A stretch of DNA of 64,000 nt from Papiliotrema nemorosa (lineage: Eukaryota; Basidiomycota; Tremellomycetes; Tremellales; Rhynchogastremaceae): NCBI GenBank assembly GCA_032158125.1, contig JASKOT010000007.1:682001-746000 (forward strand), written 5' to 3'. Position numbers and translations under genes: made by a program. The notes beneath the pieces were generated by a model. It was given only the letters and a program-made list of their open reading frames with translations. It did not search any database and was not told the origin of the DNA. Numbering within the stretch: position 1 is the stretch's first letter; the number at the start of each line of letters is the position of its first letter. Positions 30,132-35,893 of this stretch are shown here, piece after piece.

Positions 30132-31365
30132 TCATTGTATGAGCTCTACCAACCTGGTCCACAACTTTTGCCTGTTCTCCTCGTTCCGAGACCACACACC
30201 CGGCAAGATGGCTTTTAGGTTGTGATTGAAGAACCTATCTGAACCCAAGTCCGATCTCCTCTTCTCATCCACCACTGACAACTGCCCATCAGCGCCGTTC
30301 TGGTATGTCGTCCATGATCGATAAGAGATGGCATGGAGGAGCGGGACTTACGTAGACTGGGATGTTGGCGATGTGTTTTGGGGTCGTTGCGAGAGTGAAA
30401 TACGCCGCGGTCATCAACCATGAGAATGGACGCGGGACAATCGAGAGGTCTATCGTGGCTGTCTTTACGAATCCTGCGTGTCAGACGACCAAGCAGTGAG
30501 AAGCGCGCAGCGTGCAGCGAGCAGCGAGCAGGGACATACCAGGATGAACGTGATAAAAGTGGTAATCGGGATACCGGATAGTCATCTCCTACCCTGTCAG
30601 CCCGCCCACCCATACTCGATATTCTCACGCTGAACTCACTTGGAGAAAACTGTCGAGGACAGTACTATCCCTCATACTTTGCTGAACAAACAACTTTGCC
30701 GACCATGAGTTCTCCCTCTTCTTCAATGACAAGTCGTCGACGTCCAGATCGTTCAATGATACACCCGGATTCGCCAGACAAACGACCCTGGCCCCTCTGG
30801 CCAGACCTTCCGAGCCTATGAGAGAGTACGCGAGGTGAAATCGGGATAAAGCCTGGACGGCGAACCCAAAGCCGTTTCTAGATAGTATGAGTCACTATCT
30901 TGTTGCATTGCAAGTTGTAAGAAGGACGTACCCATCTTCGGTGAGTTTGATTTCCCCCGTTGGCATCCCATTCTGACACATGATCAGGGAGTCCACCTTG
31001 ACTCCGAGCTTATCCACTTGATCCTGTATCGCTCGATGTATCCCCGACATCCCTTTGAGTGTCCTGGGTATCATCAGCCAAGGGATACCTGATGGAGGAT
31101 GTACTCACGAGAGATCCCCCTGTATCATACTATACTCCCCGAAGTTGTTCTCCTCTCTCATCTGATCAAGAACAATTTCGCCGGCAGTAGCATTTCTACC
31201 GACGATCACGATGCGGCGACAACCTATTCGAGCGAGAGATAAAGCTATACTGGGTCCAATCCCTGTCGTTCCACCCGTGATGATTGCGAACTTGGGTATT
31301 TCTCCCGATACAGTCCCGGTGGACAGCTGTGAGATGTAGTCTTTGGCTTCTTGAATGGATGTCAT
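30132..31365 (-). CDS. Atypical short-chain dehydrogenase/reductase
   Basis: Rossmann-fold protein with FAIITGGTTGIGPSIALSLA (the TGxxxGIG cofactor loop) about 30 residues from the start. Then come RRIVIVGRN, a D-L-S segment, KVDSLIMCQNGMP (equivalent of NNAG), GFAVQALSRFHL, ARVVCLANPGV, and HVHPGFVKT after the active-site region. At the position of the catalytic YxxxK the sequence reads SWSAKLF: Trp replaces Tyr while Lys is kept, and the usual catalytic Ser is not obvious in ANPGV. It may be a non-catalytic or altered SDR. The last exon ends GVWSRNEENRQKLWTRLVEL with TGA at 30132-30134. About five introns. Substrate unknown. Confidence 0.78.
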
Positions 31366-31984
31366 TGCTGTTGCGCGCGAGATGTCTTGTAGGTTTGGAA
31401 ACACTAAGAGGAAGAGTGGGTAGGTGAGGCGTGTCTTGGACAACTGCCTCCCCTTTATATCTCTTTGCATGCAGTCCATACCACCCATCGGCCATCGGCT
31501 ACGCCCAGTGTTCCCACACTCCATACGAGTAATCATCATGCGAGGAGCGCGGAATGGGTGTCGTTCCGAGGATCAACATAATGGGCGAGTGGTCGAGGAT
31601 GACCGTCGTGGAGTTATTGCAAATACATACCGGGAACGGCCATGGCAACGTTGCAGACCTCTTCACGCTCGACAGCATGGTGACTATGCATTGACTTGAA
31701 CAATCGCTCTATCAACGCGTATATTGGAGGTACGAATACTAACAATACACATGCCTCTCACCTCGCAAGTCAATTTGCGCAGAGTGTGAAGGACCTTTGT
31801 ACCCATACAACGTGGGCAGCGGGACCTATGTGACCAACTTGGGACCCCCTTTGGTAAGCTGCAGATGCCAGGGCATGTCTTCGCACCTGATCCTCCCGAG
31901 TGTTGACTACGAGACATTCTCGACGACCAGTGTCTTACCGATCATGACAGAAGACACATTCGCCCAACCGGGGCATCTGTATTG
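31366..31984. other. Spacer between the SDR gene and the RNA-repair gene
   Basis: About 620 bp: promoter of the SDR gene (minus strand) and 3' flank of the next minus-strand gene. No gene recognised. Confidence 0.35.
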
Positions 31985-34524
31985 CTAACGCACATCGTTC
32001 AATACCAGTGTTTGTTTCCCCCAATGTTGGTTACCAGCGATGAAATCCCCTCGAACGACTTTCGACCTCTCCACCGTCCTTTGTCCCGTGGGATCCTCTT
32101 TCCTGACGTAGATCCCCTCAATGCATGAATCCCCATAAGAGCTGATGGTAGCTAGGTGACGGTGTATCTGCTTCTCTTCCAACGTGTTCACACGGTCGAT
32201 AAGCGGGACCTGACATATACCCGTTCCCTCCAGTGCAGTCCCCAAGACTCCCCTAGAAACGAACGTCTGGGTGTACCGATCGTACAGGTCGAAAGCGAGG
32301 AATCGATCTGGTAATCTCGTATAATGGATAGAATGTTTCGCAACCACCCATTCTCCATACAAGATCCACCGCTCGGGAAACGTCGGATCTTGGTGCAATA
32401 ACTTCTTCAGGGCAGTCTCACGATCTTCGATCCATTTGGTCAAGGGCTTAAACTGCGCATGATCGTTCGCCGAGATCCAATGACTCCGATTTTGGACCCG
32501 GATAGAACCATCAAAATCGAGTGATATGCCCATGTTCGCCCCGTCGATCTTTTCTTCAATGACAAGGTTCCCCGTCAGAGTCGTAAAAGCGGGCAAGACG
32601 AGATCATCGTCTGTTTTCGCACCGAGATTGAGCAGATGGGGCGTCCGTGGGAACTTGACGATCACGGGAGGGTTCGAAAACAGGTCGATGGCTTTACGCG
32701 CCGCGAAGAAGCTCGAGATAGTGACGATCCCCGCGAAGCCCTCATCCATAGTAGGCGGCTGCATATCCCGATCCATCTGTGTCAATGCGTTGTTGCCTCT
32801 TCCGGGTCGAAGCGTCGGATGAGCCAGACGCCGATTGATCCTTTGTTCGCAGAGATCTTTCGTGTAATCAAAGTAGACAGCAATAGCTGGACGGTCGATC
32901 AGCTCCATCCAGACTTTCCGATCGTCCATACGGGGATTGCACCGGTCAAGGATGATCAGTGTGTCGTCGGGAACAGAGGTCCCCAGTTGTCGCTCACATG
33001 CCGATCTCGACCCTGATTCATCTTGACTAACCACCATGGTTTTCCGCCTTTTCGAGAGTACATCAGATAACCAAGATTTACCAGATCCCGGTCGACCCAC
33101 GAGGAACAGACATATCGGTCCGGGAGGTACAGGGGTGTGTGAGAGTAACGAGACCGGTTCGATGATCTCCAGAGTGTTGCCCACTTTCCACCGATGGGAT
33201 ACCCATTTGGCAACAAACTCTTCCTGCTGTCTCGATTCTAAAGACCTAGGTCGGGCCTGTCGTAATAGGCTGATGGCTGTTTTGGCGTCCAGTATCGGAT
33301 ACGTAGATTCTGATTGATCACCTTCTCCCAACATGGCTATGAGACACGCCAGAACTGTCCCTGCTCTGCCCACCCCTCCTCCACAGTGGATGACCCACTT
33401 GCCCCCTTCCTGGACTTTGTCCCAGATCAGATCCATTTCTGCTATTGTGGGCGGGTCCCAGTTCGGCACGGGAATGTAAATGTGCGTAATAGGTATGAAC
33501 CTGAACCTTTCAGGATCGAGCGGAGTTTCCGCCGTCAAGGTGAGTATATGGGTGAAGCCGAGTTTTACCAATATATCAACATCGTTCGCATTCCTCGGTG
33601 TCGACATGCCTGCGATGTTGGGGTAGAGGTACGAGAAGTTTCTGGGGAGTTCGTATGAATGATATATGGCTCGATCGCGTGATTGAGTAGGGTGTAGCGT
33701 CAAATAAGGGGGGAGATCAGGCCAGGGTAGTGCGAGATGGGGTACGAGGTCCGGGTTGATATGGTGCAGCTCGGTAGCTGCAGCCACTGGACCAAAAGAG
33801 GACGCATCTCGCAGGGAGATCAGTCGCTTGAGGAGAAGTGGGAGAGGTTTGAGAGCGTATGCGCGACCGTAGCATAGTGCGGCGAGTTTTGGGTTGGATC
33901 TCTGCGATGTCTCGCCGAGCCGGATGTAACCTTTGAAGGAGTCTGGCCAGTGTAAGATCATCCGTTCCCCGAGGACATGTTGCTGAGCATCAGGCAATTG
34001 CCCAAGTGTAGTTTATGTCACAGAGAATAAGAGCAAGACTCGATGAAGAGATTACTTACAAGATGGGATGAGGCCTTTGCCCAAGTATGATCCATCGCTT
34101 CCTCCCCTATGGCTTCTAACGTCCGAGCTAAACAATTCACCTCTCTTTCGTCTCGGACACCTCCTAGACCCTTGTCCACCGCAAGATCGTCCACCTCTGA
34201 CAATGTCACATGATAGTCTTTTGGCGGTAATCCGATGGTTTTTCTCCAGATATCCGCATGGTTCCAAACGATGATGATCCACGATACGCCTGATTTCGTC
34301 ACCCAAGTCAAGGCATAAATGTGGCCAACCGAGATGCTGGGGATAACGGGTCGTCCAGCTGCTTTGTACTCTGTAGCTGATACGAGGGTAATATGTAGAG
34401 GATGACCCAAAGGCAGTTGTATGTCGGGACACAATTCTTCAATGACAGTGTCAAGGGATATCCCGATCAAGGCTAGTCCGCCGCGGTACGGCTGGATCTC
34501 GAGGTGTTCTTTCGGGACCTGCAT
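31985..34524 (-). CDS. RNA-repair fusion: 2H phosphoesterase, DSP phosphatase, polynucleotide kinase and RNA ligase
   Basis: Two exons (34060-34524 and 31985-33982) around a 77-nt GTAAGT...CAG intron give about 820 residues. Domains in order: (1) residues 1-155, a 2H/LigT-like phosphoesterase with two HxT motifs, HIT 44-46 and HVT 105-107, expected to open 2',3'-cyclic phosphates; (2) about 160-200, TPR-like helices; (3) about 265-400, a DUSP23-like phosphatase with HCGGGVGRAGT (Cys 355, Arg 361) and general-acid Asp 331; (4) about 445-590, a P-loop polynucleotide kinase with GRPGSGKS 451-458, SQDESG and ILDRCNPR; (5) about 610-820, an RNA ligase with EEKIDGANMG (nucleophile Lys 633), YGEWVVAKHS (motif III), FLAFDLYD (IIIa), EGIYVRKE (IV) and KVVRGDF (V). 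Yeast Trl1 is ordered ligase-kinase-CPDase and has no DSP. All key residues are present, so it looks active. The final 2 kb have no intron, unusual here. An upstream 5' exon cannot be excluded. Confidence 0.85.
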
Positions 34525-35893
34525 GATGTGTCAGCGTTTGCGTTTGCGACGGTGTAAAGCGTAGTAGAGATGATCATACTCGTCCATCTCGCTCTTGTAC
34601 GTTTGCCCACGAAAGGACATCTGCGTTGACTCGATCATGAAAATGGTGGTTGTCAACAGGAGAGGGGTACTTCTCGGATCCGAAGCAGGGAGCTTCTTGA
34701 AACTGGGCTCATAGCCCATGCATGCATGCCAGCCGGCCTAAACTGCTCGTCACTCTGATCGTCGATAGGTCAAGCAGCGAAAGCATGCAGTGAACATACA
34801 AATTGAGGCAGTCTTAACCGTAAGCGACAGTTGGCAGTCGCACAGAGAATGCCGCATTTTTCAGCTTGGATGATAGGGCGATGCAACGGGTCGCCTCGCC
34901 AGACCAGCAAACTGAGCATCCGCAATCACAGGTTGATCCGCAGCGGAGTAGCGCTCGCAGATAGAGCCCTAGGATGCAAATGGCCTGACATGAGCGTCGA
35001 CGATCACGCAATTCGACAAATAAACAATCCCATAACGCGGGTGGAGCCAAGAGTCGTCAGGTCTTTATACACCCCCAAGACTTTTCTAATTATACGCCTC
35101 TGCTCCTCTTGGAATCTGGAGTGATTCGGTATTCACCACACGAGAGTTACTCCGACGGCTCCATTAGAGCATAAGCAGTATCCGTGTAGGCGCGTGGTCA
35201 GTTTGATTCATTTATGCAACGACGGGAAGTCTATAATCGATCGGATTATGTCCACGAGGAACTCCTCCAGCTCTCCCCCCTGATACCCTTCTTTCGGGTC
35301 TATGACGGATCTCCTACTGTGCCATTCAAGCGTGACAAGGTTGACATCCGGCGTGGACCAAATGATCTATCTCGGCACGGCATGCATGGTTGTTGTCTGC
35401 TGTCTCGGCTGCTCGGAGTAACTCCAGGACCGAAAGCGTTACACCCCCCAACTAATTACTGGAACTCAGCTGGGTCAACGTAAGCGAGTACGCGTACCAT
35501 AAGTCTGGTATGGCCGCTCGGACAACACTCCTCGCTCGCTTGATTCGACTGGCCTTGCAGATGGTACATGGCTGTGGTTGAGCCCGATGCCTGTAGAGAC
35601 GATGAAGGAGTACGGAGTGTTTTCGCTCATCTGCTTCCCGATGATTATGATCGGCCAAATCGTACCATTCGCCCCACTTGATTGAGGGTCGACGACTGGC
35701 GAAGTCGATGGGGCTGATGTATGTACATCTTAGCGTACATGCCGAGGTGCAAGTCAGCAAGATCTGTCAGATCGTCGAGGTATATATACTGTCCACTCAT
35801 CCTCAGAGAGCGGACAACCAGCTACTTTACCACTACCGAACACTCGCAAAACCATCACCCACAACACACAACAATACCTACCTTGAACCAACC
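34525..35893. other. Divergent intergenic region between RNA-repair gene and secreted-protein gene
   Basis: About 1.37 kb. A minus-strand frame at 34531-34719 abuts the RNA-repair start and ends at an in-frame stop; it could be leader sequence, since no donor in the right phase was found. The right end carries the TATA box of the plus-strand gene (35781-35788). Nothing else supported. Confidence 0.4.
35781..35788 (+). promoter_or_regulatory. TATA box of the small secreted-protein gene
   Basis: TATATATA lies 106 nt before the ATG at 35894, followed by a C/A-rich leader (CCACTACCG, ACACACAACAATACC) typical of strongly expressed fungal genes. Confidence 0.6.

Follow-up and report, generated by a model that had tools for sequence, protein, structure and literature searches.

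Background

When RNA is cut by a metal-independent RNase or a ribozyme, one new end carries a 2',3'-cyclic phosphate and the other a 5'-OH. RNA repair proteins of the 'Swiss Army Knife' (SAK) kind were reportedly described by Burroughs and Aravind in 2016 and 2023, and the Pfam descriptions of two models, PF22547 (2H-SAK) and PF22784 (PTP-SAK), both say 'Swiss Army Knife', indicating that proteins of such kind are already described. According to the review PMC3400036, ligation in yeast and plants typically relies on the 2'-phosphate/3'-OH ends that their 2H-type CPD domains produce, and T4 Pnkp yields a 2',3'-diol. We analysed a window of 64,000 nucleotides from the basidiomycete Papiliotrema nemorosa (assembly GCA_032158125.1, contig JASKOT010000007.1, positions 682,001 to 746,000), in which a minus-strand gene combines matches to both SAK models with a kinase and an RNA ligase. 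Its product is probably an enzyme of the SAK kind that heals and seals RNA ends within one polypeptide.

Domain architecture of the predicted protein

Four enzyme domains were called by Pfam, each above the curated cut-off, and lie in the order 2H-SAK, PTP-SAK, AAA_33 and RNA_ligase in a predicted spliced product of 820 aa. A reading made earlier from the sequence alone (the sequence-only reading) had proposed these four enzymes in one chain, and the profile matches bear it out. The motifs it had listed are all present, in the order it gave, in one 820-residue frame with one intron: HIT (44–46), HVT (105–107), HCGGGVGRAGT (354–364), GRPGSGKS (451–458) and the ligase motifs EEKIDGANMG (631–640), YGEW (697–700), FLAFD (716–720), EGIYVRKE (777–784) and KVVRGDF (796–802). 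Three further H-x-T occur at 252, 543 and 708; only the claimed pair at 44 and 105 falls within the 2H match. Chance alignment of motifs was ruled out by these four stretches above cut-off together with the 675-codon stop-to-stop frame around exon 2; at the stop frequency of the window, a frame of that length has a random probability of about 8e-11. Consensus signals and the domain order place the predicted exon junction; the unspliced intron would put an in-frame stop in the reading frame, and another in-frame stop lies 3 codons upstream of the ATG.

The 2H-SAK match (E = 2e-11, 44.7 bits against a cut-off of 27) spans profile positions 37–119 of 124. A search of PDB sequences with the 2H segment gave no match at E up to 1, and the predicted structure of exon 1 (mean predicted local distance difference test score, pLDDT, of 47.6) was too poor for use. 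The segment after it, about residues 156–267, had been labelled TPR-like; this label was not borne out, as no Pfam match was found up to E = 10 and the predicted model has pLDDT under 50 there; a single TPR-like helix pair is visible by eye only.

The PTP-SAK match (8.7e-39, 133.4 bits against a cut-off of 27) spans profile positions 1–153 of 153, and the Tc-R-P and Y_phosphatase models, overlapping it, also score above cut-off. The closest solved sequence relative of this DSP domain is DUSP23; other PDB phosphatases also match. For the kinase, the AAA_33 match (7.6e-7) has a best stretch of just 30 residues, while the PDB search retrieved 9d8a (named a Rhizopus azygosporus kinase; 4.9e-15), 9drz (5.8e-13) and mammalian PNKP (about 1e-5). 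In these alignments the P-loop is present and Asp476 is aligned with the Asp of the NRD motif of PNKP. The NCBIfam model TIGR01663, an equivalog model of the whole two-domain PNKP (PNK-3'Pase), gave 19.3 bits against a cut-off of 502.8, and a literature search for 9d8a and 9drz found no paper.

The ligase domain carries motifs I, Ia, III, IIIa, IV and V with Lys633 as predicted nucleophile, and its core motif residues are invariant among relatives. It is the only reliable part of the predicted structure of exon 2, and its predicted fold matches NgrRnl and T4 Rnl2. A PDB sequence search with this segment gave no match at E up to 10, and the Rnl2 equivalog TIGR02307 scored 16.5 bits against a cut-off of 197; by sequence, the ligase is Rnl2-like, not Rnl2 proper. 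Human capping enzyme RNGTT also appears in the fold list (ranks 45–46, E about 0.005, root mean square deviation 23 A, probability 0.44–0.54), a match too weak to count for or against a DSP that acts on 5' ends (see below).

Table 1. Features of the gene, in coordinates of the window
Feature	Residues	Coordinates	Strand	Basis or remark
Exon 1	1–155	34060..34524	minus	ATG at 34524, open frame, GT donor past exon end
Intron (77 nt, phase 0)		33983..34059	minus	GTAAGT...CTCAG, sequence signals
Exon 2	156–820 + stop	31985..33982	minus	within 675-codon stop-to-stop frame
2H phosphoesterase domain	43–109	34198..34398	minus	PF22547 2H-SAK
2H motifs		HIT 34387–34395, HVT 34204–34212	minus
Middle segment (reader's 'TPR-like')	156–267	33647..33982	minus
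DSP/PTP phosphatase domain	268–412	33212..33646	minus	PF22784 PTP-SAK
Phosphatase loop	Cys355-x5-Arg361	33356–33388	minus
P-loop kinase domain	447–569	32741..33109	minus	AAA_33; GRPGSGKS at 33074–33097
RNA ligase domain	592–820	31988..32674	minus	Pfam RNA_ligase PF09414, 7e-32

Upstream, a short open frame on the minus strand (34531–34737), ending ...MDEYDHLYYALHRRKRKR, has its stop 6 bases before the ATG of the gene; it may belong to the tail of a preceding gene or be a further exon upstream. The downstream neighbour (31105–31572, minus strand) resembles part of a short-chain dehydrogenase (TGGTTGIG, by eye).

Relatives of the ligase and their neighbourhoods

Relatives of the ligase alone are many in the plasmid, phage, viral and bacterial collections, with identities of up to 44–45%; matches in phages covered the ligase alone or little beyond it. 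In a tree of 140 rows (the window and 139 of the 170 loci; loci with matches shorter than 180 residues were dropped), the window ligase groups with three Myxococcota ligases (L023, L024 and L027) with support of 85/87 and a highest identity of 44%. At these three loci (about 3.95–5.96 kb) the RNA ligase gene is directly followed by a gene for an HD + AAA_33 kinase protein, the HD match of L027 being 0.5 bit under the cut-off. The pair is probably a two-gene RNA repair operon.

Neighbours were counted at the top 80 of at least 537 bacterial loci (L023–L102), some of which are truncated by contig ends. An HD-kinase gene was found nearby in 8 and HEC-03A and/or HEC-03B (PADLOC) in 60, with neither in 12 and both together in none; the 60 comprise 43 loci with A and B, 15 with B alone and 2 with A alone. 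Among the best 80 of 138 viral loci, HEC-03 matches were found in 3 and HD-kinase matches in 6, two of the latter via the kinase part alone. At L017–L020, as at the 60 bacterial loci, the RNA ligase gene adjoins the candidate-defence genes HEC-03B, a DUF3696/AAA ATPase, and HEC-03A, a protein of about 175 aa with 'DTNVLL' that looks PIN-like by eye and has no Pfam match. At all 45 of the 80 bacterial loci with HEC-03A it lies on the strand of the ligase, the alignment ends being -22 to 81 nt apart. Nine of the 12 plasmid records with HEC-03A also contain the ligase, which in one record is interrupted by an insertion sequence; three Acinetobacter soli plasmid records have HEC-03A without it. 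Neither of the 2 ligases tested against PADLOC gave a match. A ligase-bearing HEC-03 subtype is possible, and a literature search on such a subtype found nothing. Since the nearest tree rows of the window are not HEC-03 loci, the link to conflict holds for the wider ligase group; it is by association only that the bacterial neighbours of the ligase relatives connect to RNA-cleaving conflict.

Two further ideas were rejected. That the entire protein came in one piece from bacteria or phages is contradicted by tblastn (E 1e-3), in which neither the 2H segment nor the middle, DSP or kinase segment was found in the 170 ligase loci (L012 and L014–L182, chosen by ligase and with flanks of at most 4–5 kb; the window gene, L013, served as positive control). 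The N-terminal extensions of some bacterial ligases, of which L034 (990 residues) is the largest, are by eye read-through of overlapping frames and not fusions of the fungal domains; that of L034 is partly the C-terminus of an HEC-03B-like gene (by eye). Viral contigs scanned for the 2H and DSP segments, as single-sequence patterns that reach close relatives only, yielded no relative.

Proposed function and alternatives

We infer all activities, substrates, the order of steps and a use in RNA damage as follows. The N-terminal 2H domain would convert the cyclic phosphate to a monoester and the DSP domain would strip the latter, giving a plain 2',3'-diol, while the P-loop kinase would phosphorylate the 5'-OH; the Rnl2-like ligase would then self-adenylate on Lys633, activate the 5'-phosphate and seal. 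By family knowledge, a 2H domain beside an Rnl2-like ligase would imply that the leftover phosphate must be removed, and the DSP is placed between these two domains. Sealing would yield an ordinary 3'-5' bond lacking the 2'-phosphate left by Trl1, and the enzyme would be used against RNA damage rather than in tRNA splicing.

Several points weigh against the proposal of a SAK-type repair enzyme. We know of no activity for this protein, and its placement beside the HD-kinase ligases has moderate support (85/87). Neither SAK label is specific: the PTP-SAK profile also matches 8 of 14 control genomes, in 6 of them above cut-off, and 2H-SAK matches occur in 6 of 398 genomes of one bacterial phylum (0 of 8 others) as stand-alone proteins, so that a match to a SAK-named model does not by itself establish membership. 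Finally, Asn329 (33461–33463) replaces the PD-motif Asp of DUSP23, 25xa and ShufPTP (aligned entries: 4erc/2img for DUSP23, 25xa and 9e9l). In the DUSP23-type PD motif this Asp is the general acid, and monoester hydrolysis may therefore depend on Asp331, two residues further, or be weak. From the alignment, Asp331 may substitute for the general acid, or the DSP may use another substrate.

One such substrate might be the 5' end, the DSP removing a 5'-tri- or diphosphate so that the ligase could use primary transcripts, with the 2H product tolerated or handled elsewhere. Asn at the general-acid position would suit an anhydride substrate, whose leaving group is good, as with the RNA triphosphatases of the DSP superfamily. 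However, an Rnl2-type ligase needs a 3'-OH by family knowledge, the 2'- or 3'-phosphate left by the 2H domain might block sealing, and the best solved sequence relative of the DSP is DUSP23; we regard this explanation as unlikely.

Its phosphodiesterase-, kinase- and ligase-type domains are common to Trl1, and the protein might thus be a second ligase for splicing of the tRNA or HAC1 type, redundant with Trl1. The assembly (19.19 Mb, 68 contigs) nevertheless already contains a separate Trl1, as the sequence-only reading had suggested checking, with ligase, kinase and CPD parts ordered from 256273 to 253740 on the minus strand of contig C2, as well as a Tpt1 on contig C27. The gene is not a Trl1 variant, as PF09511, PF08303 and PF08302 match C2 and not this gene (neither exon gives a match to any of the three up to E = 1) and its domain order is reversed. 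With an Rnl2-like rather than Trl1-like ligase, a role as second splicing ligase is very unlikely. The gene has the only RNA_ligase (PF09414) match of the assembly and, among the best candidates of six-frame searches, the only matches above the PTP-SAK and 2H-SAK cut-offs, a weaker second PTP-SAK match on C6 being below cut-off; HAD_SAK_1 (PF10307) gave no match in the genome in a search whose controls were equally silent. The presence of Trl1 and Tpt1 makes a system apart from tRNA splicing plausible, as had been proposed, whereas the accompanying idea of a use against RNA-cleaving toxins stands by association only.

That the 2H and/or DSP domain serves scavenging or signalling, acting on small nucleotides or proteins instead of RNA ends, is highly improbable given that both are fused in one chain to an RNA ligase and a domain resembling polynucleotide kinases. 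In its favour, ordinary DSPs use phosphoproteins, and the six bacterial 2H-SAK proteins are solitary, the surrounding 5 kb or so containing no match to a ligase, kinase or DSP. These six (L190–L195, loci near 5 kb) are 178–241 aa long with hydrophobic N-termini (by eye), and a long upstream frame in 3 of them resembles NAD-dependent DNA ligase (by eye).

Returning to the SAK-type repair enzyme, we tentatively extend the proposal: the DSP, with a displaced general acid, might be the RNA 2'- or 3'-phosphatase between the 2H domain and the Rnl2-like ligase of a second, scarless enzyme for RNA-damage immunity, put together from acquired parts and present besides Trl1 and Tpt1. The bacterial kin of the ligase lie mostly in candidate-defence cassettes. 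We give this extension somewhat less than even chances. If the DSP does remove terminal 2'- or 3'-phosphates, a fungus could seal RNA without the 2'-phosphate of Trl1 and without Tpt1. The gene would be a compact example in which a eukaryote keeps RNA repair separate from tRNA splicing, with RNA conflict, judging from the bacterial neighbours of the ligase relatives, as its possible source. PMC11258130 reports that acquired genes annotated as RNA ligases rise in a bdelloid rotifer on fungal attack and proposes that damage by ribotoxins is repaired; this agrees with a conflict reading, although the proteins studied there are different ones.

Comparison with known systems

Trl1 likewise has a ligase, a P-loop kinase and a 2H-kind phosphodiesterase in one chain. 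The window protein differs in its reversed order and extra DSP, both of which the sequence-only reading had recognized, and in having a PF09414 instead of a PF09511 ligase. The bacterial pairs of RNA ligase and HD-kinase, which we take to be HD-Pnk, are two genes, with HD in place of 2H and DSP. In the bacterial complex Pnkp1-Rnl-Hen1, according to PMC4411300, phosphatase, kinase and ligase likewise jointly repair ribotoxin-cut RNA, but as three proteins, with a T4-Pnkp-like phosphatase and an added 2'-O-methyl mark; the window protein has no methyltransferase match in Pfam. T4 Pnkp with T4 Rnl1/Rnl2, according to PMC3400036, has an aspartate-based phosphatase and a ligase separate from the kinase/phosphatase protein.

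A literature search of limited coverage found no paper on this architecture and no experiment on SAK proteins. Novelty of the architecture is not supported, since Pfam already names its 2H and PTP domains after SAK proteins. The SAK-type 2H and PTP domains are shared with those proteins, and here stand in one chain with a kinase and an RNA ligase. Judged from its sequence, the gene would be an additional member of the described SAK group, one whose putative phosphatase step is of interest.
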